A DNA stretch of 61,743 nt from Akkermansia muciniphila (GTDB lineage Bacteria > Verrucomicrobiota > Verrucomicrobiia > Methylacidiphilales > Verrucolacustridaceae). Where the stretch lies: positions 1-61,743 of the forward strand of contig CAMDXQ010000003.1 in the NCBI GenBank assembly GCA_945878585.1, in the 5' to 3' direction. How positions within the stretch are numbered: position 1 is the first letter of the stretch; the number at the start of each line of letters is the position of its first letter. A program made the translations under genes and the position numbers. Shown here one piece after another: positions 17,662 to 37,480 of the stretch. Below the pieces are notes generated by a model. The model did not search any database, had not been told where the DNA came from, and saw only the letters and a program-made list of their open reading frames with translations.

Positions 17662-17685
17662 CCTCTTTCCTAGCCTAATTTGCTG

Positions 17686-20600
17686 ATGAGTAAAAGCTCC
17701 CGAGCCGAACAGCCTTGGCTGGAAAAAGGTTTGTTCTTTGTTTTTTTAGCGGTTTTTGGGTTTTTCTGGCTTCAAAATGGTCCCTCCAACCAAGAGCTTT
17801 TAGCTAACTATGCCAAGGCGAAGGATTTGTGGGACTTGATGGTTGTAAACAAGGGTTTTGCTTGGTGGACGCCGAACTATCTTGGGGGAGCCCCCACCGC
17901 GCCATTGGCGGGAACCGCATTGACGATGTTTTGGATGGTTCTTGGGGGAGCCTTCACCAATCCAATCGTGGGTTGCAAGGTGCTTGGGTTCCTCGCCCTC
18001 GCAGTTTCAGGAGTTTTGATGTCTGCCTTTATCCGACGCCTTACTGGTGACGAACGTGCAGGTTGGATTGCCGCATTTCTCTATGCACTTGGACCGCAGG
18101 CCGCTCTCCGGCTTGCTGGAAATGAACATATGCCAGTTATTTTCTCCATGCCGTACCCGCCTCTGATCGGTTGGGGGCTATTGGAAATTGCCACTCGAAA
18201 CTCAGGAAGAGGAATTGTGGTTATTGCATTATCGGTCGCCGCTATGAGCCTTACTTTTAATAAAATCACCGCTGTCTTTGCCCCAGTAGCTCTTGGATTA
18301 GCCGTTTGGCTTCACTTCCGATATCCGCACAAGACCATGCCTCTAATCAGGGGTTGTCTTCTTGCTGGGGGTATTTTTCTTTTTTTGGGCATCCTTCCTC
18401 AACTCCCCGGACTTCGAGAGGCTAGTCGGATGACTCTTTTTTCCAGTGACCCGCTCCTTGGCTGGCAATCTAGCTTTTCCATTAAAGCCCCGCTCTCCTG
18501 GTTTGATCGAGGGGGCTTACTGATGCAGGGGATGCCTAGTAATTTCACCGTGGATGAGGGTGGTTTCTACTTGGGGATCATCGTTGTCCTTGCCACGGCT
18601 GTGGCTCTTGAGGTTCGTCGCAGGGGCTCCGAATCGAATCTGGATGGCCCTCTCAAACTTTTTATTTTGCTCTTCCTGCTCATCCAGTGGTTCAGCTTGG
18701 GGCCACGCAGCGGATTCGGCGGAATTATGGAGTTTCTAAAATCGGCTCAGGGAATTCAGGACTGGGTTCTGCCCATCTTTTGGATCAGTGCCTTGGGCCC
18801 AATCGCTGTTCTTGCTTTGATCTGGCCGAACGGAAAATGGAAGTGGCCGACATTTGCGATCGCTTTGGCGGTTTATATGTTTCTGCCGGGTTTTCGACTC
18901 TTTGAACTGATTCCTTTGGCAGGGACCGTCCGTGCCCCATGGTCTTTCTGGCAAGTAGGTGGGGCCTTTTGTCTTGCAGGAGTAGGCGGAATTGCCATTA
19001 CACGGTTTTGTCCTGGAAAGACGAGAAGTTGGCTTCCACCTGTCGTCATGATTGTTGCTGCACTCGATTTCACACCGTATTACGGCAAGTTTTTCAAGCC
19101 AGGACTGGAGGTGGGTACTTACGAAAGTTTCCTTGAGGCAGCAGCCTTCCTAAAAAACCAGCAGAAACCAGGATCTATTTTGCCACTTTCTGGCCGATAT
19201 TTTTACACCCAATTACCCCAACTGACGGGTCGGCCAATCTCCACCGAAGCGTTTCAAGCCTACTTTATGAGCAAAGGGGTTCGAGCGATTCAGGATGCGG
19301 GCGGGGCAAATGCAGATCTCATGAAGGTTTCATTAAGCTTACAGGGCGTCAGGTATATTCTTTTAGATCGAAAGGATGTCGATACACCGGAGCAACTCCA
19401 GGCTGCATTCAAACAGCAGTACCCAACCGTGTTTGAAAACTCGTTTTTCACAATTCTTGAAAACCCCAATTCGTTGGCTCCAGGTTTCATTGCGAAAAAC
19501 TATGTCTCTATCCCTCCTTTGCGATTTGAGTATTGCGGCGCAGATCTAGGGTTGGTTCGTCTTTACTTCCTGCCAGTGGAAATTCCGGGAATTGAGATAA
19601 ACGATCCGTCCTTGGCTGGGATCATGAATCCTGAGAATGGGGAAGTGGAGCTGACTCCGGGGTTCCGAGATAAGGAAGGCGAGCCTTTCCGCTTATTGGA
19701 TTCATCCACTTGCCGACATGAAGGGCCTAATGTTTGCAAGATTTCACCTCAAGGGCAGTCAGGATGGCTTATGTTGACCCAGGCTTGGCATCCCGATTGG
19801 CATGTTTTTGTGGATGGAATAAGGAGCGATCTGCGTAGGGTAGCTGTCGCATTTACCGGCATCCGGATCGGAGAGGGGGCTCGGGAAGTGAGTTTTGTAT
19901 TTTCTCCTCCAATTTGGGTTTCCCTTTCTCTGGGTCTTGGTCTTGGAAGTTGGATATTGGTTTTCGGTGGAAGTGCTTATCTGCGTTTTACAACGTCTGC
20001 TACCACTTGGAAAAAATGGTGGGAAGGGGAGGATCTGGAATTCGATAAGCCGATTCAAGCGAACACCCGAAAAACTCCTTTCGTGGTGAAAGAAAAAAAT
20101 GTTCGTCATGAGAAGCTCGGGAAGCCCTTGGTTGTTTTGCCTACCTACAATGAGTCTCAGATGATCCAGCTCGCTCTCGACGAAGTCTTGGGAAAAGCCC
20201 CTACTATTGATGTTCTTGTTGTGGATGACGGATCACCGGATGGAACAGCTGGCAAAGTTAAAAGCCATTCAATGTACGGTAAACGAGTTCATATCTTGGA
20301 GCGTCCCGGGAAAGCGGGTTTAGGCTCAGCGTATCGTGCGGCATTTCAGTGGGCTCTAAAAATGGGTTACGATGCTGTCGTAGAGATGGATGCCGACCTG
20401 TCACACGATCCGGCGGATGTACCGCGACTTTTGGCGGCTCTCAGTGAGGGGGCAGATATTGCAGTCGGGTCACGTTACTTGAATGGAATACGAATTCTGA
20501 ATTGGCCCCAAAGCCGGCTTTGGATCAGTACTTTTGGAGGATGGTATGCTAGGAGTTTGACCGGTTTGCCTATGACCGATCCGACCAGTGGCTTTAAAGC

Positions 20601-20829
20601 AATCCGGCGTCGGGTATTGGAGGAGTTGAATTGGGAGAAATTCACTGCCCAAGGGTATGGCTTCCAAGTCGAACTTCACTTCTTTGCATGGCAATCAGGA
20701 TTTAAGATTGTGGAAGTACCCATCGTTTTCACCGAACGTCGCCAAGGGGATTCCAAGATGTCGACTCCGATTGCTATCGAGGCAGCAAAAAGGGTCTTTC
20801 AACTAGCGATTCGGAGGATTTTCCCATGA
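17686..20829 (+). CDS. YfhO-like membrane protein fused to DPM1-like GT2 glycosyltransferase
   Basis: 1047 residues. Residues 1-460 have about 11 membrane helices with a GT-C/YfhO-like loop (WTPNYLGGAPTAPLAG). Residues 460-750 are an outer domain ending in GWLMLTQAWHPDWHVFVDG and a VSFVFSPP strand, the YfhO signature, followed by one more helix. Residues 810-1047 are a complete cytoplasmic GT2 of the polyprenyl-phosphate-mannose synthase type: PLVVLPTYNES, VVDDGSPDGTA, VEMDADLSHDP, VGSRYLNG, DPTSGFKAI and FTERRQGDSKM. So donor synthesis and GT-C-like transfer may reside in one chain. Starts at ATG 17686 without a Shine-Dalgarno sequence, 24 bp from the divergent gene; its stop overlaps the next gene (ATGA). 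Confidence 0.85.
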   Translation: MSKSSRAEQPWLEKGLFFVFLAVFGFFWLQNGPSNQELLANYAKAKDLWDLMVVNKGFAWWTPNYLGGAPTAPLAGTALTMFWMVLGGAFTNPIVGCKVLGFLALAVSGVLMSAFIRRLTGDERAGWIAAFLYALGPQAALRLAGNEHMPVIFSMPYPPLIGWGLLEIATRNSGRGIVVIALSVAAMSLTFNKITAVFAPVALGLAVWLHFRYPHKTMPLIRGCLLAGGIFLFLGILPQLPGLREASRMTLFSSDPLLGWQSSFSIKAPLSWFDRGGLLMQGMPSNFTVDEGGFYLGIIVVLATAVALEVRRRGSESNLDGPLKLFILLFLLIQWFSLGPRSGFGGIMEFLKSAQGIQDWVLPIFWISALGPIAVLALIWPNGKWKWPTFAIALAVYMFLPGFRLFELIPLAGTVRAPWSFWQVGGAFCLAGVGGIAITRFCPGKTRSWLPPVVMIVAALDFTPYYGKFFKPGLEVGTYESFLEAAAFLKNQQKPGSILPLSGRYFYTQLPQLTGRPISTEAFQAYFMSKGVRAIQDAGGANADLMKVSLSLQGVRYILLDRKDVDTPEQLQAAFKQQYPTVFENSFFTILENPNSLAPGFIAKNYVSIPPLRFEYCGADLGLVRLYFLPVEIPGIEINDPSLAGIMNPENGEVELTPGFRDKEGEPFRLLDSSTCRHEGPNVCKISPQGQSGWLMLTQAWHPDWHVFVDGIRSDLRRVAVAFTGIRIGEGAREVSFVFSPPIWVSLSLGLGLGSWILVFGGSAYLRFTTSATTWKKWWEGEDLEFDKPIQANTRKTPFVVKEKNVRHEKLGKPLVVLPTYNESQMIQLALDEVLGKAPTIDVLVVDDGSPDGTAGKVKSHSMYGKRVHILERPGKAGLGSAYRAAFQWALKMGYDAVVEMDADLSHDPADVPRLLAALSEGADIAVGSRYLNGIRILNWPQSRLWISTFGGWYARSLTGLPMTDPTSGFKAIRRRVLEELNWEKFTAQGYGFQVELHFFAWQSGFKIVEVPIVFTERRQGDSKMSTPIAIEAAKRVFQLAIRRIFP

Positions 20830-23676: not shown

Positions 23677-24315
23677 TTATTTCCTGGTCGGAACGGGTGG
23701 GGGAGTGGCGGAATCTGCAGGCAACGCAAGCAACCCTGCTTCATTCCAAGGATTTGTCATGCCCACAAGCTCTTTGCGTTTGGTGGCAACTTCCTCTGGG
23801 GTAATCGGGCCTGCGCTGTTTCCCCATTCACTCCGGATATAGGTTAGAATGGCCGAGATTTGGTCATCCTTTAATGGGACCGGGGCCCCATCACCCCATG
23901 CCGGCATATTATTGTTGTATAAAACACCCTTCACGTTGATAGGTCCCGCGATTCCTTTGTGAAGTATCGAAATCAGTCTGTTCTTAGATTCCAGGACCCA
24001 CTCCGAGCCGGCCAAAGGAGGGTAGACACCGACTTGGCCTAATCCAGTTGCTTGATGGCATTGGGCGCAGTTTGCCGTGTAAAGACGTTTGCCGATCACC
24101 TTTGGATCGGGTGGGGCAACAGGTCCTGTATTGACGGGGCCCCAGGTAATTTGGCTTGGGTCGTAGACATCCCCTCGAAATCCGCCGCTATAAAAGAACA
24201 GATATCCTCCCGCCCAGAAGGAGAGAATTACCCCCAGACCCAGGATCCACCCAGGAATGGGAGCATGACGCTCGGTTGGGGCTTGGGAGACGGAAGGTAG
24301 TTCAGATGGGTTCAT
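23677..24315 (-). CDS. Membrane-anchored monoheme cytochrome c (CcoP-like position)
   Basis: 212 residues from ATG 24315, with GGAGG 10 nt upstream. One helix (WILGLGVILSFWAGGYLFFY, residues 23-42) anchors a class I cytochrome c: heme site CAQCH at 83-87 and axial Met in NNNMPAW (M137). ISAILTYIRSEWG is the closing helix. Last gene of the ten-gene ACIII operon, overlapping the preceding cytochrome (ATGA). By order (N-O-P) and anchor topology it resembles a reduced cbb3 subunit III with one heme instead of two. Expected to carry electrons on the periplasmic side, either to the CuA oxidase encoded nearby or within the ACIII assembly. Confidence 0.85.
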   Translation of the reverse strand: MNPSELPSVSQAPTERHAPIPGWILGLGVILSFWAGGYLFFYSGGFRGDVYDPSQITWGPVNTGPVAPPDPKVIGKRLYTANCAQCHQATGLGQVGVYPPLAGSEWVLESKNRLISILHKGIAGPINVKGVLYNNNMPAWGDGAPVPLKDDQISAILTYIRSEWGNSAGPITPEEVATKRKELVGMTNPWNEAGLLALPADSATPPPVPTRK

Positions 24316-24914
24316 TTGAGTGGGGCCTCCGGCAACGCATAGTCGGTACGTAGAGATTGGAGATAAGCCACCAGAGCTTTGGCCTCGTAGCTTGGTAATA
24401 ATTGCTTCCAATCCCGGGTTGGGACTGAAAGAGCTTCGTTTTCAATCGATGGTCCGGCCAAAGAGGAATCAAACAGCCAAGGATGAGGGGGGCAGGTCGA
24501 GTTTGGATTTCTTTGGCGTGGGTTGTAGAGGTGCATCAGTAAATCCTTGGATTCTGGGACTCTCAATCCGACATTCGAAAGATCAGAACCGATTCTGGAT
24601 AATCCGATGAGGGCGGGTTCACGGAAGAGGTAATCACGCGGAACGGTGCGTCTTGGGCCCCAACCCCGAGTTAGATCAGCAGAGCCCGAAGGACCTCGGA
24701 CAGAAAGGGAGTGGCATTCGAGACAGCCTTGGCTGGCAAAAACGCGAGCGCCCGTTTGAGCAAGGCCTGAGGGGGTCGGGGGAGCCGGATAGTTGGTCTC
24801 TTCGTTGAGAATGGGTTCCAATCTCCCTACCTGGAAGAAACCGAGCGCGACTTGTCCTGCCCAGGCAAAAAGAAGAGCGAGGAAGACAAGAACGAGAGCT
24901 TGGCTGGATTTCAT
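24312..24914 (-). CDS. CcoO-like membrane-anchored cytochrome c
   Basis: 200 residues from ATG 24914. A single N-terminal helix (residues 6-27) is followed by GARVFASQGCLECHSLSVRG (CLECH 64-68), then RIGSDLSNVG and HLYNPRQRNPNSTCPPHPW. These blocks match cbb3 oxidase subunit II (CcoO): GC-x-x-CHS, G-DL-x-x-VG, HL-NPR. In canonical CcoO a Met in NMP/SMP is the axial heme ligand; here that position is Cys141 (STCPP). A longer frame extends to 25019 but would overlap the CcoN-like gene, while 24914 leaves a 4-nt gap. Member of the ACIII operon tail. Confidence 0.85.
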   Translation of the reverse strand: MKSSQALVLVFLALLFAWAGQVALGFFQVGRLEPILNEETNYPAPPTPSGLAQTGARVFASQGCLECHSLSVRGPSGSADLTRGWGPRRTVPRDYLFREPALIGLSRIGSDLSNVGLRVPESKDLLMHLYNPRQRNPNSTCPPHPWLFDSSLAGPSIENEALSVPTRDWKQLLPSYEAKALVAYLQSLRTDYALPEAPLK

Positions 24915-24918
24915 CGTT

Positions 24919-26355
24919 TTAGTGGTGGGCTGGGTGGAGGGGATGGTTCGGGATATCACGATTTGCAGGAAAAACAGCGACAGGCGCAACGGAAGGGAAG
25001 AGCTTGAGGAGGCTGGCAAAGAAGATGGAGGAAAATGCCAACTGGCCTATCCACCAGAAAAGTTGACCTGCCAAAACAATCACGAGGAATGGTCGGAGGT
25101 AACTCGAGATCGTGGACATAGGAACGCCGGGATCATTCAGGGCCAAACCTTGAAAGATGCCAGCAAGTGCGTAAGCAGAGGCCAGTAGAGCAGCGCCTAA
25201 AGTGGTGAACCAGAAGTGGTATGCGAGCGCAGGATGGCTAGGCCATCCCATCGATCGAGAGGCGGGCAAGAGGGCATAGATGGCGCCAGCGAGAACATTT
25301 CCGTAGAAGGAGAAAAGGAGCAGCGCCTGAGTGGCTTGGCCGACCATGGTAAACGTGGTTGTTTGCCGAACTCCTGGCAAGGCCAGAAACGTTATCCATG
25401 CATATGAAGCGAAGTATGACCAGAAGCCGACAGCGAAAAAGCGGAGGGCAACTTGGCGCCGACACTCCTCCCATTTTCCTTCAAGAAGGGGTTTGAAGAG
25501 AAGAGTATTGCCTAGAACAGCGACTCCAAGAAGGAGAGTGGCGACAACCCCTGCACTTTGTAGCCAGGAGGGCATGGGTCCTTCACTTGCCAAGCTGTTG
25601 CCAATCCATCCGCCCAAAGTGATCGTTGCAACCCATGAAAGGATCCCAAGGGAGAGGCTACCCGCTGCGCGCCCCGTGAGAGCAGGTAGAAGTTGAAAGA
25701 GTAAAACTAGAGCCAAAGGAGTCAGCCACAGATGATGAAGGAAAGAGTGCCATGCAAACTGCATGATGATCTGAAGGGCGCCCGGGGCCAGACTTCCTCG
25801 GAGAAGAAGCTCGGCAGTGCCTAGTCCCAATGGGAAGGCAATCAGTCCGCCCAATAGGTAGAGCCGAGGAAGTAGAGGGCCACTTTTCCAGGAGCGTCCT
25901 AAACCACGGGTGAGACCAGTTCCAAGAATTAGGAAAGAGATGAAGAATAGGACGCTCACGGATCTCGAGAAAGGCAGGGAGAGGAGACCCGTGGATCCAT
26001 TCCAAAGAATTTCAGCCAAGCCAACAAGAACAGCGAATTGCCAGAGGATTGCCGCACTGGTCAGGAGGCGTCCGTACCGAAAGGGTATTCCTGAAATCCT
26101 TGGGATCAAAATCAGCAGAACTCCGAGGAACCCAGAAGAGATCCAACCGTAAGTAAAAAGAAAGGACACAAGCGGGGCTAGATGGCCATATCCGATCCAA
26201 GGAATAGGAAGGAGATAGGCGAGCGAAGGAACCAGCAATTGTATGGTTGCGAGAACTTGGAGACCTGCTCCAAGTAAGGCCCAACTGACCGAACCGATCA
26301 GCAGGATTCCTGCGGAAGAGTTGGCTTTACAGACTGATGGAGTCGGGGAGTTCAT
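24919..26355 (-). CDS. CcoN-like (cbb3 subunit I) membrane protein lacking heme and copper ligands
   Basis: 478 residues, about 12 helices. Family membership is shown by WALLGAGLQVLATIQLLVPS, by HPALAYHFWFTTLGAALLAS with AGIFQGLA just after it (a cbb3 subunit I hallmark), and by AGAIYALLP. The metal ligands are gone: helix II has PLVSFLFTY where CcoN has RPLHTN; the CuB His-His pair region reads ASEGPMPSWLQ instead of GPHHLHYT-x-LPDW; and VGQATQ (338-343) replaces the IGHVHS pair of heme ligands. A His cluster WHSFLHH (202-208) is out of register. So it probably cannot reduce oxygen and may be a structural or quinone-interacting subunit. It follows the one-TM protein by 2 bp. Confidence 0.8.
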   Translation of the reverse strand: MNSPTPSVCKANSSAGILLIGSVSWALLGAGLQVLATIQLLVPSLAYLLPIPWIGYGHLAPLVSFLFTYGWISSGFLGVLLILIPRISGIPFRYGRLLTSAAILWQFAVLVGLAEILWNGSTGLLSLPFSRSVSVLFFISFLILGTGLTRGLGRSWKSGPLLPRLYLLGGLIAFPLGLGTAELLLRGSLAPGALQIIMQFAWHSFLHHLWLTPLALVLLFQLLPALTGRAAGSLSLGILSWVATITLGGWIGNSLASEGPMPSWLQSAGVVATLLLGVAVLGNTLLFKPLLEGKWEECRRQVALRFFAVGFWSYFASYAWITFLALPGVRQTTTFTMVGQATQALLLFSFYGNVLAGAIYALLPASRSMGWPSHPALAYHFWFTTLGAALLASAYALAGIFQGLALNDPGVPMSTISSYLRPFLVIVLAGQLFWWIGQLAFSSIFFASLLKLFPSVAPVAVFPANRDIPNHPLHPAHH

Positions 26356-26357
26356 GA

Positions 26358-26825
26358 TTATTTTTTTACTGCGGAGGGGGAAGGGGCTGGAGTGGCCCCT
26401 CCGTCCACTTTTACGGCGGGTGTTGCTGCGACTGGTTCCGTAGCAGGCAAGCCCGGGTAAAGAGGCGCACCAGCAGCGGATATGGCCGAAGGTTGGATGG
26501 TGGTGATGGGATATGCGGGGCGCGGTGGATTTGAGCGGAGCTGGGGAACGACCAGCTCCATGGCTTGAGCGATCGGAATGTGGGCGACACCTTTTGACTT
26601 ATCGACCCAACCATATGTGGTGACTGCCGAATCTTGTTCTGTTCGGAGTTTTGACAATTTTTCGAGGCGAACTTTTGCAGCCGATTGGGTGATTGTGGAA
26701 GGGGTTACTCCTAGTGGCCGAAGCAAAAAGGCAATACTGGCTAACCCCAGGAAGCCTGCTGCGAGCCAAAGCCCTGGCAGGTAGGGGTGGCGTCTCTGAT
26801 GAATGGAGTGGGAGGATTCGCTCAT
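26358..26825 (-). CDS. Conserved one-TM protein of oxidase clusters
   Basis: 155 residues: a cytoplasmic start, one helix (residues 17-36), then a periplasmic part with YGWVDKSKGVAHIPI (71-85) followed by an AMEL-containing helix, and a low-complexity Pro/Ala tail. The YGWVD-x-x-G-x-x-x-IPI-x-x-AM pattern recurs, from memory, in small proteins beside cytochrome oxidase or SCO genes in Verrucomicrobia and Acidobacteria; I know no proven function. The start overlaps actF (ATGA) and the gene is locked into the ACIII operon between actF and the CcoN-like gene. An assembly or stability factor is a reasonable guess, no more. Confidence 0.65.
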   Translation of the reverse strand: MSESSHSIHQRRHPYLPGLWLAAGFLGLASIAFLLRPLGVTPSTITQSAAKVRLEKLSKLRTEQDSAVTTYGWVDKSKGVAHIPIAQAMELVVPQLRSNPPRPAYPITTIQPSAISAAGAPLYPGLPATEPVAATPAVKVDGGATPAPSPSAVKK

Positions 26826-28066
26826 AACCAGTTGGTCACCGCCAAGCTATCCCGTAGACGCGGGTCGCGGGCGGGGAAAATCGAACCACGGGAAAGGAGC
26901 CAGAGAACCGTGTGACCGAGGATTCCCAAGACACCGACAAGGGCAAGAAGATCGAGGAGATGCGGGTGGAAGCCTGTGGTAGCGGCCACATGACCGGCAT
27001 GTCTCGACTCCTGAAGCTGAAGATTCGGCATGATAATCCAGTAGATGTCCACACAGTGCATGCCGACTACCCAAACGGCCGTGCTACAGATGCGCCATGG
27101 AGTTCTTTTTGCCGGCTGGGTCAGAAGGAGGATGAAGGGGATGAAGAAGTGACCCACAACCAGAAAGATAGAGTACCAGTACCAACTGCCGGTATTGCGG
27201 TATACGAAGAACCATGTTTCCTCTGGGATGTTTGCATACCACTGCAGGAAATATTGGCTAAAAGAGATATATCCCCAGAAGGTGGTGAAGGCGAAAAGGA
27301 GCATTCCCATGATATGATTATGTTCGACCGTGAAGAGACCCTTAAGGTGTCCCGTGCGGACAAGGCCATTCGTGATCAAAATCAGAATCGCCATCGAGGA
27401 TTGGGCACAACCGGCAAAAAGGTAGACTCCCCACATGGTGGAGTACCAGTGGTGGTCCAGTGACATCAGCCAATCAAATCCAGCAAAGGTAAGGCAGAGT
27501 ACAAAGAGAGGGATAAATCCATAGGCCGTATGGCGAAGGCGAAGGGTGATTCGGGGGTCTCCATCCAAGTCTTGTCGCATGGAAAGATTCCGGTAGAGCA
27601 GTCCAGCTAGTGAAAAGAAAAGGAGGTAAAATCCGCAACGGATATAAAAAAACGGCTCATTCAAAAACGGTCTTTTCCATGCAAGGAGTGGATCTTCCGA
27701 CAAATCGGTGGTCATCCAGTGCCAAAGCTCTTTCGAGAAAAGGAAGATGATGGGGAGAAACAGAAGAAGGAGGACTGGAAAGCACGAAGCTATCGACTCA
27801 AGAATCCGGCGCATCAGGACGGACCAGTCGGCATCCAGCGCATGGTGAAGAAGTGTCCAAAAGAGCGCACCTGCACAAATAGTAAATCCCACCGTGAAGG
27901 CAAAGAGGTAGGAGAACGCTAACTGCATCGGGTTTGTCATCAGCCCCCACACAAAAGCGGAGATAAGACCGATTACGCCAACCGTCGGGAAAAGGACGGG
28001 CAGGATGCCAAGACTTTCCAGCCGAAGTTTTTCTGCAGAAGGAAGATGTGAAGGGCTATGGCTCAT
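26822..28066 (-). CDS. actF: Alternative complex III subunit ActF (NrfD-like)
   Basis: 414 residues with about 10 helices, the smaller of the two NrfD/PsrC-like quinol-binding membrane subunits of ACIII. FDWLMSLDHHWYSTMWGVYLF is characteristic of ActF, as are EETWFFVYRNTG and HFFIPFILLL. ACIII oxidises quinol and passes electrons to periplasmic carriers in place of the bc1 complex. It overlaps actE upstream and the one-TM gene downstream, each by ATGA. Confidence 0.92.
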   Translation of the reverse strand: MSHSPSHLPSAEKLRLESLGILPVLFPTVGVIGLISAFVWGLMTNPMQLAFSYLFAFTVGFTICAGALFWTLLHHALDADWSVLMRRILESIASCFPVLLLLFLPIIFLFSKELWHWMTTDLSEDPLLAWKRPFLNEPFFYIRCGFYLLFFSLAGLLYRNLSMRQDLDGDPRITLRLRHTAYGFIPLFVLCLTFAGFDWLMSLDHHWYSTMWGVYLFAGCAQSSMAILILITNGLVRTGHLKGLFTVEHNHIMGMLLFAFTTFWGYISFSQYFLQWYANIPEETWFFVYRNTGSWYWYSIFLVVGHFFIPFILLLTQPAKRTPWRICSTAVWVVGMHCVDIYWIIMPNLQLQESRHAGHVAATTGFHPHLLDLLALVGVLGILGHTVLWLLSRGSIFPARDPRLRDSLAVTNWL

Positions 28067-28683
28067 GGTTTCTTGGCGGCGTTTGCTACATCCGGCGGAA
28101 GAAGTTTTGCTGGCGCATTCTGCGCCAGTTGGAGTGCCCGGATATAGGCAACGATCGCCCAGCGGTCGTTGACGTCGATATGATGATACGGTCCCATCTG
28201 ACCCTTCCCGTGGGTGATCGTATTAAAAATTTCGCCATCGGCCATTTCCCGGTACTTGTCGAGGTGGTAGCTGGCCGCTCCGACCAGTCCATATTGCGAG
28301 GTGATCCCATTTCCTGCGCCTGTCGCACCGTGGCAAACTTGGCAGTTAATTTGATAACGTTCCTGTCCACGTGCGAGGAGCTTTTCATCTACGGTTACCG
28401 GGATACCCGTTCCCCACATATTTCCCATCTTCCCTGTAAGGCGGTAAGGCTGGTCGGTGGTGACATGGAAGGGAATCGTTCCGTAAGGGGGCACGCGATC
28501 GACTCTGCCTTCTGTAAAGAGTGGGGAAGGCGTTTGTGACTTGTATTTGGGTTGCCGATCCATGTCGGGGAAAATTTCGATCGGGGTGCGCTGGGTGAAG
28601 TCCCCACGAAATCCTGCGATAGCCACGATCGCCACAACTAGGGCGCCAAAAACGGCGAGGAAAATCCGAATAAAACCCTTCAT
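28063..28683 (-). CDS. actE: Alternative complex III subunit ActE (monoheme cytochrome c)
   Basis: 206 residues: an N-terminal helix (RIFLAVFGALVVAIVAIAGF) then DMDRQPKYKSQ, a typical ActE lead-in (family form DM-x-x-QP-x-x), and a class I heme site CQVCHGATGAGNG. The axial Met is probably that in GKGQMGPYHHI. The closing helix is DRWAIVAYIRALQ. ActE is the lipid- or helix-anchored heme subunit that, with ActA, moves electrons out of the complex. ATGA overlaps on both sides. Confidence 0.92.
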   Translation of the reverse strand: MKGFIRIFLAVFGALVVAIVAIAGFRGDFTQRTPIEIFPDMDRQPKYKSQTPSPLFTEGRVDRVPPYGTIPFHVTTDQPYRLTGKMGNMWGTGIPVTVDEKLLARGQERYQINCQVCHGATGAGNGITSQYGLVGAASYHLDKYREMADGEIFNTITHGKGQMGPYHHIDVNDRWAIVAYIRALQLAQNAPAKLLPPDVANAAKKP

Positions 28684-29267
28684 GAGGATGTCTCCGGACG
28701 AACTGGATTCGGGGTTTCTTCCGGATCCTGAAAGATTTCTGTAATATAGAGGCCACCGATGCCTTGCAAAAGTTGTCGCGAGGATGTGGTGTCAAATCGG
28801 GGATCTGTTGATTCCAGTACAAGAAAGAAGCCATCATCGGTGGCACGCTGAAAGCGATCCCAGTTGAAAACAGGATGATGAAGGCGCGGAAGAAGTGTTA
28901 AAAGGAGTAGACCGAGAACTGTGCCGAACGCAGTTAAGAGAATGGTCAATTCAAAGAAGATCGGGAGGGAAGGCTCGAGTGCGAAATAAGGTTTTCCCTG
29001 GACGATCAGGGGGTAATTGATGGCGGAAGTGTAGTAGATCAGAATGAAAGCTACGGATAGTCCCGTGCACCCACCGATGAGGGAAAAGAGAGACACGCGA
29101 GAGCGCTGGAAACCCATGGCGTGATCCATTCCGTGAATCGGGAAGGGTGAGTACACGTCCCACTTACGAAAGCCAAGGGAATGAATTTTCTTTGCTGCTT
29201 CCAAAAGTGCGCCGGCAGATGAGAACTCTGCTCCCAAACCAAAAAGAGATGAGGTCGGTTGGCTCAT
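28680..29267 (-). CDS. actD: Alternative complex III subunit ActD (DUF3341)
   Basis: 195 residues. [22 protein letters not shown] then [19 protein letters not shown] is the DUF3341 signature; two hydrophobic helices follow ([19 protein letters not shown] and a second one with [19 protein letters not shown]). No cofactor is bound by ActD; in ACIII structures it is a peripheral subunit with membrane helices lying against ActC/ActF. Overlaps actC and actE by ATGA. Confidence 0.93.
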
Positions 29268-30727
29268 GCGTGCACCTGGGAAGCCCCATGTGAATGTGTG
29301 GAAAGCGAGTGGTGATGAGTGCCGTTAGTGTCGTCCGTATGAGGGTCGGCCTGAGGAGTGATGCCCTTGACTTCAAACATGTTGATGATCGGGAGGAAGC
29401 GGACAAAGAGTAGGAAAAGGAATACGAAGAGACCTATCGTGCCGATAAAGAGAGTTATATCGACCCAAGTCGGGGAGAAGTAACCCCAGGAGGAGGGAAG
29501 AAAGTCGCGATGAATCGAGGTGACGATAATGACGAATCGTTCGAACCACATTCCCGTATTGGGGAACATTACGATGGCTAAGACAACCCAGGGGTTTTGG
29601 CGGCAGTACTTGAACCAGAAAAGTTGAGGAGCGGCGACGTTGCAGGTGATCATCGCCCAGTACGCCCACCAGTAAGGGCCAAAGGCGCGGTTCGTGAAGG
29701 CGTAGATCTCAAAGGGGTTGCCACTGTACCAAGCGATAAAGAACTCCATCGAGTATGCGTAACCGACGAGCGAGCCGGTAAGTAGAATGATCTTACACAT
29801 GTTGTCGATATGCTTGTCGGTGACGAGGTCGTGAAGGTGGTAAATCTCACGGAACGGGATGAGAAGAGTGAGAACCATGGCGAAACCGCCGAAGATGGCG
29901 CCTGCAACGAAGTAAGGAGGGAAGATGGTGGTGTGCCATCCGGGAACAATGGAAGTAGCGAAATCGAAGGAAACGACGCTATGCACAGATAAAACGAGGG
30001 GGGTCGAAATCCCCGCGAGAATCAGATAAGTTTTTTCGTAATGGGTCCAGTGACGGTTTGACCCGCGCCAACCCAAGGCCAGGAGACCATAGACCATCTG
30101 ACGAAGTCGGGTGGTGGCACGATCTCGAAGGGAGGCAAGATCTGGAATCAGCCCCAAGTACCAGAAAATCAGGGAAACGGTGAAGTAGGTGGATACTGCA
30201 AAAACGTCCCAAAGGAGTGGGCTCCGAAAATTTTGCCAGATGGCATTTGCGTTCGGGATGGGGGCAAGAAACCAAGCCATCCAGACTCGGCCGACGTGAA
30301 AAGCTGGAAAGATTCCCGCACAGATGACGGCGAAAATGGTCATCGCTTCTGCGGAACGATTGATCGAGGTGCGCCATTTTTGGCGAGTAAGGAAAAGGAT
30401 GGCTGAGATCAGAGTTCCTGCGTGGCCGATTCCGATCCAGAACACGAAGTTCGTAATGTCCCAGGCCCAGCAAACGGGGACGTTCAAGCCCCATACTCCG
30501 ACTCCAGTGGAAACAAGGTAGGTCAGCATTGCTGGTACCAATGTGGCCATGCCCCCGAAAACAATGGTCAGAATCCACCACCACTTCGGAGCACGTTCTT
30601 CCACGATTTGGCAGACGTGTTGAGTGATCCACGATAAGGGCCGGTGGTTGGACACAAGCGGTTGACGCTCCAAATACGCTGCGGCTTGCGCAAAAGCAGC
30701 TTGAGAGGATGGGTTATCGGCTCTCAT
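29264..30727 (-). CDS. actC: Alternative complex III subunit ActC (NrfD-like, quinol site)
   Basis: 487 residues with about 10 helices. [67 protein letters not shown] and [15 protein letters not shown] are strongly conserved ActC/PsrC blocks near the quinol pocket. A His-rich tail ([22 protein letters not shown] region) ends the protein and might bind a metal, an inference only. Overlaps actB and actD by ATGA. Confidence 0.94.
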
Positions 30728-33700
30728 TCGTGGCTCCCTTGTTTCGGGTGAGCAGGAGTTTCGTGGGAAGCACCTGCGCTCTTTTCTGCGGAGTGCTTCT
30801 CCGCATGGCCGTGGGCAGGTGCATAATGGGTACGGGCGCCGGGCATGGCCGGGTTGGGATTCCGAATTCTTCCCAAATAGGTCAGCCGTGGACGAACATT
30901 GAGGTATTCAAGAAGAGAGTAGTTCTGGGGAAGTTCGCGCAATTTTTTCACTTCCGATGATTCATCCAGCAGATCACCAAAGACGATCGCTTCGGCAGGG
31001 CAGGCTTGCTGGCAGGCGGTTTTGAGAGTTCCAGTTGGAATTTTCAAATCGGCTGAGTCGCGAGCACGAACCCGAGCTGTGATCTTTGCATCTTCGATGC
31101 GCTGAACGCAGAACGTGCACTTTTCCATGACTCCACGCATCCGAACGGTGACGTTCGGATTCTTCTGGAGCTTGATCGTCTCCTCGGTCCCTTTGGGGGC
31201 CAGAGGTCCCCAATAAAGCTTGTCCAAGGCGCGTTGGTTGTAATCGAAGAAGTTGAATCGCCGGACCTTGTAGGGGCAATTATTCGCGCAGTACCGTGTA
31301 CCGATACAACGATTGTAAGCCATCACATTCAGACCTTCCTCATTGTGAACGGTGGCATTCACTGGGCAGACCGTTTCGCATGGGGCGTTTTCGCACTGCA
31401 TACAGGCGATCGGTTGGGAGACTGATTCAGGGGCGTCGGGTTCACCGGTATAGTAACGATCCACGCGGATCCAGTGCATTTCACGGCCTTTCATGACCTG
31501 ATCTTTGCCGACGATCGGGATATTGTTTTCTGCGGTACAAGCCGTGACACAGGCGTTGCAACCCGTGCAGGTTGAGAGATCCACCACCATCGCCCACTGG
31601 TGTTGGCCATCTAATTTTGGATTCGGGTAAAATGTTTGATTCGGCGGGATGTGGGCATCCATTCCAACGGTTTTCACCCAAGCAGGATTTTCTTTGAATT
31701 CGTTGACGGATGCTTCTCGGACAAGGTCACGTCCTTCCATCACTTGGTGTTCCTGGGTGACGGCGAGTTCCTGAGTGCGCCCTGTGCGTTTAAGCTGGAG
31801 TCCATTCGCCTGGTAGTCCGTGGTGGATGTTCGGAGTTGGTACGCATCAAAACCGGCGCCCTTAGCGACAGGTCCACTCAGCTCTTGTCCGTATCCGAGG
31901 GGGAGACTGGCACTTCCATTGGCATGACCAGGAGCAATCACGATAGGGCCTTCGATCGTGCGGCCAGCAAGCGTGGCTTTCACCACATCGGCGACTAGAA
32001 TCCCTTTGATGATATCATTTTTCAAACCAAGGGAGCGTGCGGTCTCTGGAGAAAGAAGAATTGCATTATCCCACGTGAGTTTGGTCATGGGATCCGGCCA
32101 TTCCTGCATCCAACCATTATTGGCGTACCGGCCGTCATCCACTGCGGCAGAGTGAATAAAGACGGTTTCAAGGGAGGCGGGATCTTCTGCAGGAGAGCTT
32201 TCAATACGAGGAAGAAGCCCTGCAACAGCGTTTAGATTTGCTGTTCGTGAAGTCGGGGAAGCCGCTGGGCTTGCCTGAAATCCTTCACGGACAAAATCGT
32301 TCCAGCCTTGCTCTAGTTTCTCGCCAGCCAAGCCTGTGCGTTGGGCGAAAGTTTCACGGATGAGGGAGGGACCGATCGGGATGGGTTGCCCAAGAATTTG
32401 GGATAGGACTTCCAGCTGACTTAGACCGGCCCAAAGAGGTTGGATCATCGGCTGAACCGACAGGTAAGAACCGTCGACAGCTAATGCGTCACCCCAAGAT
32501 TCCAGGTAGTGGGTTCCCGGAATCGACCATGTTGACTGTTTTGAGGTCGCATTTGGAAGGGAAGAAAGGTGAAGAGTGTTTGGAACAGAGGACTGAAGGG
32601 CTGACCAGTTCATGTCGGCGGGTGCGTTATAGACGGGATCCCCGCCAAGAATGACCAATGTGCGAATGGTTCCGCTTCGAATTTTTTCAGCAAGCTGCGC
32701 CAGCGTGGCAGATGGAAGAGCCCGTCTGGGTTGAACAAGAAGGGTTGTGCCAACGGAGCCCAAGGCAGAATTCAGCGCAAGGGCGAGTGCTTGGAGTGGT
32801 ACGGGAAGGCGTCTTCCCACAAGTAGAAGAGAGCGGTTGCCGTGGGAAACGAGATCGGCAGCACATTCCCGGATCCAAGCTGGATCAACGCCTTCGGGAA
32901 GGGGAAGGTCGGGAGACTGCGATAAGAGAGCATTAAGCTCCGCGCTAGGCTTGGCGGCACGGATTTGACGGGCAAGTTCAAGAAGGAAGGCCCCTGTAGC
33001 ACTCGGACGGAGACGGAGACGGTGATCGGCCATTGTGCCGGTGATGGAGAACCGTGGTTCAACAACATACAGGCGATTTGTTGAATCGGAGGGTTGGCGG
33101 GTCCGGCGCCCGGATGAGAAGCCCCGGGTGTCGGAAAGATCTCCTTCATCCGATCCCAAGAAATCACAGTCGACCGCCAGAATCGTGCTGGCAGCGGAAA
33201 GAATAGGGCGGAATTCGGTATTGTCGCCAAAGACAAGGGCTGACGCCTCTAGATCTCGTCCGGGGGCTAGGGGTTCGTACGTTGCCCATGTAGATTGTGG
33301 GAACTGACGCTGGAGTTCTGTGCGAAGTCGATCTCGCGTGGGTGAAAGTTGTTCGTCGGCGAGAACTGCGAAAGAGGAGCCGGAGGTGGAAGTCGACTCG
33401 GTACGGATTCGGTTGATCTCTGCATTCCAGTCGGCTGAGGAGGCTTTTTTTCCACCTTTGGTTAGATGCTGGCGACGGGCAGGGTCATACAGATCGAGGA
33501 TCGAGGCTTGGGCATGATTATCACTCGCGCCCTGGCTCAGGGGATGGAGTGGGTTGCCTTCCATCTTGATCGGGCGTCCGTCAAAGGTTGTCGCGAGCAA
33601 GGGAGTCGCGCCGCGACGGCGAGGTTGAGCTGTGGCGAAGGAGATTTTTTTGCCGGGTACAACCCATTCTGGGGATTGGGTGAAGGGAACGAGGTGGGCC

Positions 33701-33927
33701 TCGGGTCGGCGACAACCGGAAAGGCTCAGGCCCGCGAGTGCAAGGGAAGCGCCCATGAGTCGGATGAAATTCCTCCGAGAAAGAGGATCCTGATCCCATT
33801 CGGCGGCTCCGGCAGGGAACTCGCGGTGCAGCCACTCTTCGAAATCAGGAGTCTTCGCGTACTCGCCAAGGCTGCGCCAATAGGTACGCCCTTGAGAGGA
33901 GGAGGGGTGATGGAGAGTGCGTTTCAT
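30724..33927 (-). CDS. actB: Alternative complex III subunit ActB (molybdopterin-like plus ferredoxin, Tat)
   Basis: 1067 residues. [20 protein letters not shown] with the twin Arg at 51-52 is a Tat signal, carried after a 50-residue leader typical of ActB; a Cys (SGC, residue 72) follows. The large middle part resembles the molybdopterin oxidoreductase fold, a domain that lacks the cofactor in known ACIII. The C-terminal domain has four Cys groups: [37 protein letters not shown] and a CTFC/CQQAC pair, enough for three 4Fe-4S and one 3Fe-4S clusters. This is the fused B1+B2 form. It is separated from actA by 3 bp. Confidence 0.94.
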
Positions 33928-33930
33928 GGT

Positions 33931-34584
33931 TTAGCGATGGCACCCGCTGCAACTCACGGGGGGTTTTACATTCCACTCTTTGACGAATTTTTCGCCAAGT
34001 TCGCGCTGACTCGTGCCCATGGGTGGTTCCCAATCTAAATTCGTCACTTGGTCAAGCGGGCGGAGATGATTTTCCGGAGCGCGGTGGCACTCCAAGCACC
34101 AACCCATGCTGTGGGGTTTGGCGTGGTAGACGACTTCCATGTGGTTGACGTTCCCATGGCAAGCGACGCAACTGACGCCACGATTCACGTGAACCGCATG
34201 ATTGAAGTAGACGTAGTCGGGAGCTTTATGAATTCGGACCCACGGAACCGGATTGCCGGACTTCCAAGACTCGCGTACGGCAGCAAGTTTAGGGCTTTGG
34301 GATTTGATTTGAGTGTGGCAGTTCATGCAGGTCTGGGTGGATGGAACATTGGAGTGGGAGGATTTTTCAACTCCCGTATGGCAGTAGCGACAGTCCATTC
34401 CAAGTTGATTCACATGGAGGGAGTGATCGAAAGCCACGGGTTGGGTGGGTTGATAACCGACTCGTGTGTATTTTGGGGTAAAATAGTAGGCCATCCCCGA
34501 GACAACGCTGGCCGCAATGACTGTGAGACAGACCAAGATTTTGATCGGCAACCAGTTGCTAAAGCGGGGAAATATATTGGCCAT
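33931..34584 (-). CDS. actA: Alternative complex III subunit ActA (pentaheme cytochrome c)
   Basis: 217 residues. An N-terminal helix (residues 14-35) is followed by five CxxCH heme sites at 65-69, 86-90, 139-143, 163-167 and 212-216, the exact count of ActA. QPVAFDHSLHVNQLGMDCRYCH and YFNHAVHVNRGVSC are family blocks in which extra His residues act as axial ligands. First gene of the ten-gene minus-strand operon; the 242-bp gap to coxB must hold its promoter, though I found no convincing -35/-10 pair. Confidence 0.95.
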   Translation of the reverse strand: MANIFPRFSNWLPIKILVCLTVIAASVVSGMAYYFTPKYTRVGYQPTQPVAFDHSLHVNQLGMDCRYCHTGVEKSSHSNVPSTQTCMNCHTQIKSQSPKLAAVRESWKSGNPVPWVRIHKAPDYVYFNHAVHVNRGVSCVACHGNVNHMEVVYHAKPHSMGWCLECHRAPENHLRPLDQVTNLDWEPPMGTSQRELGEKFVKEWNVKPPVSCSGCHR

Positions 34585-34826
34585 GGGGGATCAGTTGGAA
34601 TTTTTCAAGGAGTTGTCTCGATTTAGGTCGATGTGTGAAAATGGAGATTCTTTTGACCTTCATCAAGGATGCATTAGAAGTATTAACCGAAAGCCTTTGG
34701 CTATTAGTTTTGTTTACGGGCTTTTTCCCTCTGATTTTGACAAGCAGAGCGGGTGAAATGGGGAGTGGAAGGCAAATCAATCGGGAAGGGGTTGAAATCT
34801 TTGAAATTCATTGGAGACTCACCCCC
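34585..34826. promoter_or_regulatory. Divergent control region between the ACIII operon and the cox operon
   Basis: 242 bp between the actA start (minus) and the chosen coxB start (plus); both respiratory operons should be driven from here. The best -35-like string on the plus strand is TTGACC at 34653-34658, but it has no good -10 partner at 16-18 bp. GGAG at 34813-34816 is the coxB ribosome site. The coxB frame stays open back to 34635 with a hydrophobic stretch, probably by chance. Confidence 0.4.
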
Positions 34827-35693
34827 ATGCAATCGCGTTTCTATCGTTTTGTTTCCCCCTTTCTCGTTCTGCTCTTCGTGGGTCTTTTACCGGCCCACGC
34901 AGAGATTCGGGAAACCAGTGTTTGGTGGTTACCCCGGAATGTGAACATGTTTGGGCATGCGATCGACTTTATCTTCTATGTCATTCTCGTTCTTACGGGA
35001 GTGACTTTCATCGGAGTCTTTTCGGTCTTGGGTTATTTTCTTGTGAAGTATCGTGCTCGTCCTGGTGTTCCTGCAATTCATAGTCACGGAAACAACACTC
35101 TTGAAGTGGTGTGGACCACAATTCCTGTTTTCATTTTCCTCGGTCTGGCCATTTACGGAAACGAAGAGTGGAGTCGCATGAGGCGAAATACTCCTCCGGC
35201 AGATGCATTGCCCGTGGCGGTCGTCGGTGAGCAGTTCGGTTGGAACGTCCGCTATCCCGGGGCAGATGGGAAGTTGGCAAAAATGGATCCTCTGAAGGTC
35301 GGTAAGGACAACCCCTTTGGAGTTGATCCAGCGGATCCTGTTGGTCTGGATGATTTCACAAGTTACAACGATCTGGTTTTTCCAGTGAATCGCCCTGTTC
35401 GTCTTTATCTCGGATCGAAAGATGTGATTCACGCATTTTACGTCCCAGAATTTCGTCTTTACCAAGATATGGTTCCCGGGCGGGTGTATGACTTTGTGTG
35501 GCTCAAGGCGGAAGCGACGGGGAAGTTTCAATTGGCATGCAATCAGTTGTGTGGGCAGGGACACTATAAAATGTTTGGCAAACTTTCTGTTGTTCCTGTC
35601 GCTGAGTACGAGGCCTGGGCGAAGGGGAAGGCCCCAGCGCCTGCGGTTACCGGCACAAGTTCTGCTACCCCAGTTGTTTCGAATCAAAGATAA
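34827..35693 (+). CDS. coxB: Cytochrome c oxidase subunit II (CuA)
   Basis: 288 residues from ATG 34827, where GGAG sits 10 nt upstream and a signal peptide begins (YRFVSPFLVLLFVGLLPAHA). Two helices follow, then the cupredoxin domain: VVGEQFGWNVRYPG, DVIHAFYVPEFRLYQDM with the first CuA His, and CNQLCGQGHYKM (Cys238, Cys242, His246, Met249). The usual Glu between the Cys residues is Gln here; that residue binds copper through its backbone. No heme c domain is fused. The frame is open 64 codons further upstream and a longer form is possible but lacks a ribosome site. Confidence 0.93.
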   Translation: MQSRFYRFVSPFLVLLFVGLLPAHAEIRETSVWWLPRNVNMFGHAIDFIFYVILVLTGVTFIGVFSVLGYFLVKYRARPGVPAIHSHGNNTLEVVWTTIPVFIFLGLAIYGNEEWSRMRRNTPPADALPVAVVGEQFGWNVRYPGADGKLAKMDPLKVGKDNPFGVDPADPVGLDDFTSYNDLVFPVNRPVRLYLGSKDVIHAFYVPEFRLYQDMVPGRVYDFVWLKAEATGKFQLACNQLCGQGHYKMFGKLSVVPVAEYEAWAKGKAPAPAVTGTSSATPVVSNQR

Positions 35694-35704
35694 GGAGATA
35701 AAAG

Positions 35705-37480
35705 ATGAGTACTGCAACCTTGAGTCACAATGCTTCGCACGCCTCACACGAACACACTGAGCCGACGGGATGGAGGAAATACTTGTGGTCGATGGACCAT
35801 AAAGTCATTGGTCTGCAGTATCTCTTCACCTCGCTGCTTTTTCTCTTCGTCGGCGGAGGTCTCGCACTCCTTCTTCGTTGGCAGTTGGCTTACCCGTCGA
35901 CTCAGGTAATGGCGAACGGCGATGTGGGGAATCCCATGTCCCTCGCGTTCATTAACCCCCAGTTTTACAATTCTCTCTTCACCATGCACGCCACGGTGAT
36001 GGTGTTTCTCGTGGTGATGCCCTTGCTGATTGGCGCATTCGGGAACTATCTGATTCCGCTCAAAATTGGGGCTGGGGACATGGCTTTTCCTTTGATCAAT
36101 GAGTTGTCGTACTGGGCGTATGCACTTTCTGGAGTGATTCTGATGGCGAGCTTCTTAGTTGCGGGTGGCGCTCCTGCGGGTGGATGGACCTCGTATGCGC
36201 CCTTGAGTTCCGTTGCCGCTTACAACAACACTCAGATGGGGCAGAGCCTGTGGTGTGTGGGTATTTTCATTAACGGATTGGCTTCCATCATGGGGGCGTT
36301 CAACTACATCACGACGATTGTGAATATGCGGGCGCCTGGCATGGGTTTTTTCCGGATGCCTCTTGGGGTGTGGGGGTTGTTTATCACCGCATTTTTGCTC
36401 CTATTGGCAGTGCCGGTTCTTTCCGCTGCAGCTGCTATGCTCTTTTTGGATTTAAATTCTGGAACAAATTTCTTTAATCCCGCACACGGTGGCCAGCCCC
36501 TTCTTTGGCAGCATCTCTTCTGGTTCTTCGGTCATCCCGAGGTTTATATCATGATTCTTCCCGCCATGGGTTTGGTGAGTGATGTGCTGGCTATTTTCGC
36601 CAGGAAACCCATTTTCGGCTATCGCGCCATGGTCTACGCGATGGTGGCGATCGGCTTTCTTGGATTTATCGTGTGGGGTCACCATATGTTCGTTTCCGGA
36701 ATGAATCTGGTTCTTTCGGCGGCCTTCGGTGTGTCCACCATGGTCATCGCGGTTCCTTCTGCCATCAAGACGTTCAACTGGCTCGGTACGCTCTGGGGAG
36801 GCTCGATCCGCTTTACCACTGCCATGCTGAATGCTCTGGCTTTCGTTCTGATGTTCGTCATTGGGGGGCTTTCCGGAATATTCATGGCATCTACCCCAGT
36901 CGATATCTTTGTGCATCACACGTACTTTATTGTCGCCCACATTCACTACGTTCTTTTCGGGGGAAGTATTTTCGGCATCTTTGCCGCCATCTACACTTGG
37001 TACCCCAAGATGTTTGGACGCATGTTGGATGAGACTTTAGGCAAGATTCACTTCGCCTTCACCTTTGTCTTTTTTAATCTTTGTTTCTTCCCCATGCACA
37101 ATGTGGGCTTGGGTGGCATGATGCGCCGAATTGCCGACCCTACCGCATACGAACACCTTCGGTCGCTACAGCCGATTAACCAGTTTATCACGTTAGCAGC
37201 GATCGGACTGGGCTTCGCTCAGTTTATCTTTCTTTGGAATTTCTTCCGCAGCCTGAAGTATGGAGCTCCTGCAGGAAACAACCCTTGGGAAGCAACCACC
37301 TTGGAGTGGATGGTGGCTTCTCCTCCTGGACACGGGAATTTTGAAACAACGCCTACAGTTTATCGTGGACCGTACGACTTCAGCGTCCCCGGACATGCGC
37401 GTGATTACATTATGCAGCATGAGCCACCCATATCGGAATCGCCCGTCGGAAAGCCGAAGCGTGCGGTTTCGGCGGGGTAA
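35705..37480 (+). CDS. coxA: Cytochrome c oxidase subunit I (aa3 type, A1 family)
   Basis: 591 residues, 12 helices plus a C-terminal extension. The binuclear centre is intact: GHPEVYIMILPAMG (CuB His, cross-linked Tyr and the D-channel Glu of A1 enzymes), VWGHHMFVSGMN (two CuB His) and HTYFIVAHIHYVLFGG (both heme ligands). The heme a His is in LFTMHATVMVFL. It reduces O2 to water and pumps protons. A strong AAGGAG precedes the ATG at 35705, 11 bp after coxB. The TAA overlaps the ctaA ATG. Confidence 0.97.
   Translation: MSTATLSHNASHASHEHTEPTGWRKYLWSMDHKVIGLQYLFTSLLFLFVGGGLALLLRWQLAYPSTQVMANGDVGNPMSLAFINPQFYNSLFTMHATVMVFLVVMPLLIGAFGNYLIPLKIGAGDMAFPLINELSYWAYALSGVILMASFLVAGGAPAGGWTSYAPLSSVAAYNNTQMGQSLWCVGIFINGLASIMGAFNYITTIVNMRAPGMGFFRMPLGVWGLFITAFLLLLAVPVLSAAAAMLFLDLNSGTNFFNPAHGGQPLLWQHLFWFFGHPEVYIMILPAMGLVSDVLAIFARKPIFGYRAMVYAMVAIGFLGFIVWGHHMFVSGMNLVLSAAFGVSTMVIAVPSAIKTFNWLGTLWGGSIRFTTAMLNALAFVLMFVIGGLSGIFMASTPVDIFVHHTYFIVAHIHYVLFGGSIFGIFAAIYTWYPKMFGRMLDETLGKIHFAFTFVFFNLCFFPMHNVGLGGMMRRIADPTAYEHLRSLQPINQFITLAAIGLGFAQFIFLWNFFRSLKYGAPAGNNPWEATTLEWMVASPPGHGNFETTPTVYRGPYDFSVPGHARDYIMQHEPPISESPVGKPKRAVSAG

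Follow-up and report, generated by a model that had tools for sequence, protein, structure and literature searches.

Organization of the ACIII operon

The window, the whole 61,743-nucleotide stretch of DNA analysed here, originates from a genome of a group of small-genome freshwater Verrucomicrobia. It contains a ten-gene operon on the minus strand with the order ActA-B-C-D-E-F, s155, N, O, P (Table 1). The Act proteins form alternative complex III (ACIII), and N is adjoined by genes for CcoO- and CcoP-type cytochromes. Adjacent genes share 4 bp or are separated by gaps of 2–4 bp, and this spacing supports the cotranscription layout that the first-pass annotation claimed for N, actA-F, and two cytochromes. 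The N frame starts with ATG and has exactly the boundaries annotated previously. The s155 protein has a single hydrophobic N-terminal segment and matches no family in Pfam or NCBIfam; it is retained in most operons, together with ACIII or with N. The genes of CoxB and CoxA are positioned upstream of ActA and are divergently transcribed. The Pfam profile PF00115 finds only CoxA and N in the window genome, and CoxA is the sole other heme-copper oxidase found there. Two fused genes are located elsewhere in the window: one joins a YfhO-like membrane protein to a glycosyltransferase 2 domain (17680-20829), and the other a glycosyltransferase 2 to a methyltransferase (14849-16312).

Table 1. Genes of the ACIII operon and the adjacent oxidase genes in the window
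Feature	Position	Strand	Basis
P, CcoP-like cytochrome c, one CXXCH, Met ligand retained, ATG 24315	23677..24315	-	profile match
O, CcoO/FixO-like monoheme cytochrome c, ATG 24914	24312..24914	-	FixO 51.5 bits
N, ligand-less CcoN-fold subunit, 478 aa, 12 TM helices	24919..26355	-	ORF, Pfam, phmmer, AlphaFold, Foldseek
s155, small protein between ActF and N	26358..26825	-	ORF, class comparison
ActF	26822..28066	-	position, homology across class
ActE, monoheme cytochrome c	28063..28683	-	profile match
ActD	28680..29267	-	PF11821 199 bits
ActC, NrfD-like	29264..30727	-	profile match
ActB, iron-sulfur subunit	30724..33927	-	profile match
ActA, pentaheme cytochrome c	33931..34584	-	profile match, operon comparison
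CoxB, divergent from ActA	34635..35693	+	ORF, locus comparison
CoxA, A-type oxidase subunit I	35705..37480	+	PF00115 507 bits

N has the fold of CcoN and none of its metal ligands

The Pfam COX1 model (PF00115) matches residues 17–430 of N with about 46.4–46.7 bits, above the cut-off, and phmmer aligns N over its entire length with CcoN chains of known structure (best match 8smr_E, E 3e-10). The AlphaFold (AF2) model of N (pLDDT 88.9, pTM 0.90) has the 12-transmembrane-helix fold of CcoN. Its top match in Foldseek is CcoN 3mk7 (TM 0.87/0.89), and CcoN chains rank clearly above NOR (only 0.75) and the A- and B-type oxidases. The CcoN fold claimed in the first-pass annotation is thus confirmed by the superposition of the model. 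The NCBIfam ccoN equivalog TIGR00780 scores N at 42.5 bits against a cut-off of 583. Because intact relatives of N linked to ACIII also reach only ~245 bits with the same equivalog model, the ACIII-linked oxidase represents a separate branch, or subfamily, of the C family.

In the alignments with solved CcoN chains and in the family alignment, none of the six histidines that bind heme b, heme b3, and CuB is present in N. The helix II histidine is replaced by Val63, the CuB histidine of helix VI by Ser204, the His-His pair of CuB by Ser254-Leu255, and the b3 and b ligands of helix X by Thr342 and Ala344. The active-site tyrosine of helix VII is replaced by Gly248. Placed by eye against the motif VGQATQ, the two helix X positions are Gln and Thr; neither alignment has a histidine there. 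The earlier alignment by hand, which led to the claim of total ligand loss, was right in substance. Judged from these alignments, N of the window genome is almost certainly metal-free. Since all ligands are missing, N is predicted neither to reduce O2 nor to exhibit hemes b and b3 in spectra.

The His cluster at residues 203–208 was considered as a source of replacement ligands, as its placement at the heme or CuB sites would have contradicted the earlier claim. Within the window genus, position 203 is occupied by His, Asn, Thr, or Ala, and position 207 by His, Asn, Gln, Thr, or Tyr. The only invariant histidines are His208 and His380, and neither belongs to a ligand column. The cluster was rejected, because it varies within the genus and the invariant His208 is outside the ligand columns. 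No conserved Cys or Met, and no spare conserved His pair, was found in N of the window genus.

The frame of N is open in 14 members of the genus, with about 59–85% identity, and dN/dS relative to the nearest relative is about 0.06, an approximate value because the dS of 1.6 is near saturation. The same kind of protein is present in closed genomes. The open frames, the dN/dS, and the closed genomes rule out that N is a pseudogene or an assembly error.

Distribution of N and its ligand states

A relative of N is present in 49 of the 62 genomes of the order, most families of which share the act-s155-N-O-P layout. The ligand set is complete in families f4, f6, f7, and parts of f9; it is lost in f1 (the window genus), f3, f8, and f9-g13, and partly lost in locus L057. 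A class-wide search covered 384 genomes of Verrucomicrobiae, about 58 loci were fetched, and the operon was found in nearly every family sampled. All seven residues (six His and the Tyr) are present in N from the same operon slot in 34 of the 94 loci of the class sample, and 60 loci are without the full set, with some 45 different decayed patterns among them; these are biased frequencies, as the loci were drawn from higher-scoring matches, and the window genus alone contributes about fourteen dead loci. N sequences with all seven residues are hereafter called intact, and those that lost ligands dead. The PF00115 scores are 241–272 bits for intact N versus 47–195 bits for decayed N.

In most relatives, N is encoded in the act operon. 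The exceptions are genomes G029 and G071, with ACIII and no N, and family f5 and genome G062, with N and no adjacent ACIII. Relatives scoring over about 380 bits were found only inside the class Verrucomicrobiae in a phylum-wide sample, and the only named relatives in a single-protein contig scan were two freshwater Verrucomicrobia MAGs (subdivision 6; Lake Lanier).

The intact ligand sets in the same slot of many members indicate that N descends from a genuine, ACIII-coupled oxidase of the C family. They support the earlier proposal that N is an oxidase that lost catalysis, but not that N was appended to the ACIII operon: the operon ancestrally combined ACIII with a C-family oxidase, which died repeatedly. 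Homologs in this slot lack all or most of the ligands in the window genus and in many other lineages, and the full sets in 34 of 94 loci change the story of origin to one of repeated loss.

In family f17 (L111, L112, L162) the seven positions of N read HNSQRYH or HNAQRYH, which retains exactly the helix II and second helix X histidines that bind low-spin heme b in CcoN. N of f17 is predicted to bind a bis-His heme b and to represent a heme-b-only intermediate.

Several loci differ in composition. Genomes G002–G004 of f3 encode a second ligand-less N and O pair away from ACIII (L176:2698-4122, plus strand; L070:2218-3639, minus strand); a fusion gene for the N and O of a true cbb3 (L176:1-2272, minus strand) lies divergently beside it. 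The N of f5 is truncated to about 350 aa and accompanied by O and P (L183:1516-3680 in G007, L066:5794-7944 in G008); ActD was not found in f5 genomes. In f42 (L135, L153, L154, L157) the operon contains two P-like cytochromes, one of which has two heme motifs.

Number of ligand losses

The tree of ActC and ActF requires 14 changes between intact and dead N, well-supported branches force 12 of these, and a model of irreversible loss gives 16 losses on the best ActC and ActF tree. The tree of O and P requires 11 changes, of which ten are forced. Dead and intact loci occur as near neighbours in several families: L110 with L108 and L109, L057 with L056, L129 with L155 and L128, L121 and L123 with L120, and L115 with L114 and L161.

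The full tree of N fits a different history, in which dead N would be a single ancient lineage swapped between operons by exchange. Most dead sequences are grouped in it, only three changes are needed, and the main dead group has an SH-aLRT of 98%. However, its dead branches are long and raised long-branch warnings, dead and intact loci are interleaved on the O and P and the Act trees, and in a reduced N set clades mixing intact and dead sequences are favoured or not rejected in f16, f9, f19, f25/31/53, and f33. The one ancient dead lineage was judged to be a long-branch effect from the comparison of the full N tree with the O and P tree and the reduced N set, and a single origin is unlikely. 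We read the trees as evidence for at least ten independent events of ligand loss in Verrucomicrobiae, possibly alongside some exchange of N alone between operons.

Selectivity of the decay and retention of O and P

Intact relatives have 122 columns with an identity of at least 97%. Of these, the seven ligand and Tyr columns have a mean retention of 14% in dead sequences, versus 66% for the other columns (Mann-Whitney p 3e-5); the contrast is partly built in, since sequences were classed as dead by their missing ligands, but a mean of 14% over seven columns goes far beyond that. Columns invariant in intact N and lost in dead N are foremost the ligands and other active-site positions. Among polar residues, Y251, S289, H304, T331, and Y330 (L053 numbering) are invariant in intact N and mostly lost in dead N. 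Thirty-six non-ligand columns are still at least 85% conserved in dead N.

From intact to dead loci, the mean identity decreases from 57% to 33% in N, from 53 to 41% in O, from 40 to 38% in P, and from 66 to 65% in ActC. Once the ligands are lost, N thus diverges fast and O somewhat, whereas ActC and P hardly change.

The heme motif CXXCH of O is retained in all dead loci, and P always retains its heme motif and Met ligand. The axial Met of O is invariant in all 34 intact operons and is exchanged only in operons with dead N: for Cys in the window genus (STCPPHPW in the window O), L129, L148, and L150, for His in f3 (L048), and for Ser in L144. The exchange suggests a retuning of the heme potential.

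N of Methylacidiphilum kamchatkense Kam1

In N from the Kam1 genome (G027), a single residue of the seven is left (SESSHFV). It aligns with solved CcoN, and its predicted model superimposes on CcoN with a TM of 0.81–0.85. The genome contains pmoA-like genes, one of them beside the published pmoC4 position, and the only other C-family-like protein seen is a separate one that is NorB-like by its motifs. The Kam1 genome paper reports ACIII genes co-located with a cbb3 oxidase and ties them to high O2 affinity (PMC6688271). Cbb3 is also listed among the terminal oxidases of verrucomicrobial methanotrophs in a 2021 review (PMC8498564) and in two further publications (PMC10205796, PMC11102522). If N is the published cbb3, as its position says, the Kam1 protein should not reduce oxygen. 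It is thus probable that several proteins published as "cbb3 oxidases", such as that of Methylacidiphilum, are unable to reduce oxygen. If so, models of respiration in Verrucomicrobiae need correcting, including the link to high O2 affinity in Kam1.

Co-occurrence with other oxidases

Of the 43 dead-N genomes, 42 encode a further, intact heme-copper oxidase (A-type in 41, a separate cbb3 in G075); none was found in G035. Intact N is the sole heme-copper oxidase found in G064, G068, and G367. A-type oxidases occur in 41/43 dead-N versus 25/32 intact-N genomes, a difference that is descriptive (Fisher p 0.03, uncorrected for kinship). Cox genes are located downstream of 25/55 dead and 7/32 intact loci in raw counts, but a comparison of independent pairs taken from the Act tree shows no association (median p 1). 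The raw excess vanishes under phylogenetic control, and downstream cox was dropped as a correlate of dead N. The earlier idea that N docks ACIII to the aa3 oxidase finds no backing here, as cox adjacency does not track ligand loss.

N, O, and P are retained or lost together as a set. Genomes of f5 keep N-O-P without ACIII. In the Methylacidithermus-like G029, ACIII-s155 leads directly into COX3/COX4/CoxB, and N, O, and P are absent. G029 probably belongs to the PQ17 lineage, which is reported to lack cbb3. Its ACIII without N shows that N is not essential to ACIII everywhere.

A probable scaffold for cytochromes beside ACIII

We consider N to be most probably (roughly 0.6) a catalytically dead scaffold holding O and P, which relay electrons from ACIII to another oxidase. 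It would descend from the catalytic subunit of a C-family (cbb3-like) oxygen reductase that shared an operon with ACIII and formed a menaquinol-oxidising unit with it. All or most of the heme and CuB ligands were lost repeatedly, with the fold, the operon slot, and the two cytochromes held by selection. N would serve as a membrane scaffold keeping the monoheme cytochromes O and P beside ACIII, and O and P would take electrons from ActA or ActE to another terminal oxidase, here the divergently encoded aa3. The presence of another oxidase in 42 of 43 dead-N genomes, as opposed to intact N as the sole one found in G064, G068, and G367, and the movement of N-O-P as a set support the scaffold and relay; that N binds O, P, and ACIII, and which way the electrons flow, is inferred. 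Of the earlier description of N as a membrane platform recruited for ACIII, the oxidase origin stands and the scaffold is plausible, though this role would not be a new recruitment. A more tentative proposal, possible rather than probable, is that the heme-copper oxidase fold became a cofactor-free subunit many times in parallel through intermediates of the f17 type, with a real role in ACIII energy conversion or electron branching, and that the heme of O was retuned from Met to Cys or His.

The fully kept membrane fold, the purifying selection, and the 36 conserved non-ligand columns would also suit an N with a new non-redox function complementing ACIII, for instance as a half-channel for protons or ions or as a binding pocket for quinone. 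However, the polar residues Y251, S289, H304, T331, and Y330 are mostly lost in dead forms, and the invariant histidines of the window genus are limited to 208 and 380, so this function is unlikely. The quinone or proton path suggested in the first-pass annotation is without positive evidence, and its invariant polar candidates are among the residues lost in dead N. Binding of metal or heme through other residues is more improbable still: partial sets occur in some lineages and f17 keeps the low-spin heme b pair, but the window genus has no replacement residues of the kinds named above, and Kam1 N retains one residue of seven.

It is also rather improbable, though less so than alternative heme binding, that N is a passing relic lingering in the middle of the operon without a role. 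Such a relic might explain the many ligand losses, the faster divergence of N after loss, the absence of N, O, and P in G029, and the shortening of N in f5. It is at odds with the open frames in essentially all sampled dead lineages, with the low dN/dS, and with a fold and specific residues held over very long branches.

Comparison with known systems

N resembles the CcoN of cbb3 oxidases (3MK7, 8SMR) in its whole-length fold (TM 0.87), its PF00115 match, and its CcoO/CcoP-type partners. It differs in missing the metal ligands and the Tyr, and in its TIGR00780 score (42.5 vs 583); P has one heme motif instead of two, and the operon is joined with ACIII. NorB has a related fold (TM 0.75), but unlike N keeps its metal ligands. 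In the ACIII-(c)aa3 supercomplexes of Flavobacterium johnsoniae and Rhodothermus marinus, ActA-F pass electrons directly to the oxidase and extra heme c domains form the bridge (PMC8552683, PMC5928083); CcoN/O/P-like subunits, present in the window operon, are not described there.

A search of the literature for a ligand-less CcoN, or a heme-copper oxidase subunit I homolog conserved without metal ligands, found no description. With reference to Refojo et al. 2010, the 2021 review notes that genes of a C-type oxidase lie next to those of ACIII in Opitutaceae and in verrucomicrobial methanotrophs (PMC8498564). That arrangement is like the window operon, and is here extended over the class Verrucomicrobiae. 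The papers searched take the cbb3 genes linked to ACIII to encode a functional oxidase (PMC6688271, PMC8498564, PMC10205796, PMC11102522), whereas many lineages, among them Kam1, lack the ligands. That ACIII is associated with genes of C-type oxidases was already known; relative to these papers, the ligand loss, its recurrence, and its effect on published annotation appear to be new. If this reading is right, the intact, heme-b-only, metal-free, and absent states of N constitute a natural series within one operon, which may reveal the demands of ACIII on a partner oxidase and the steps by which an enzyme of energy conversion turns into a scaffold.
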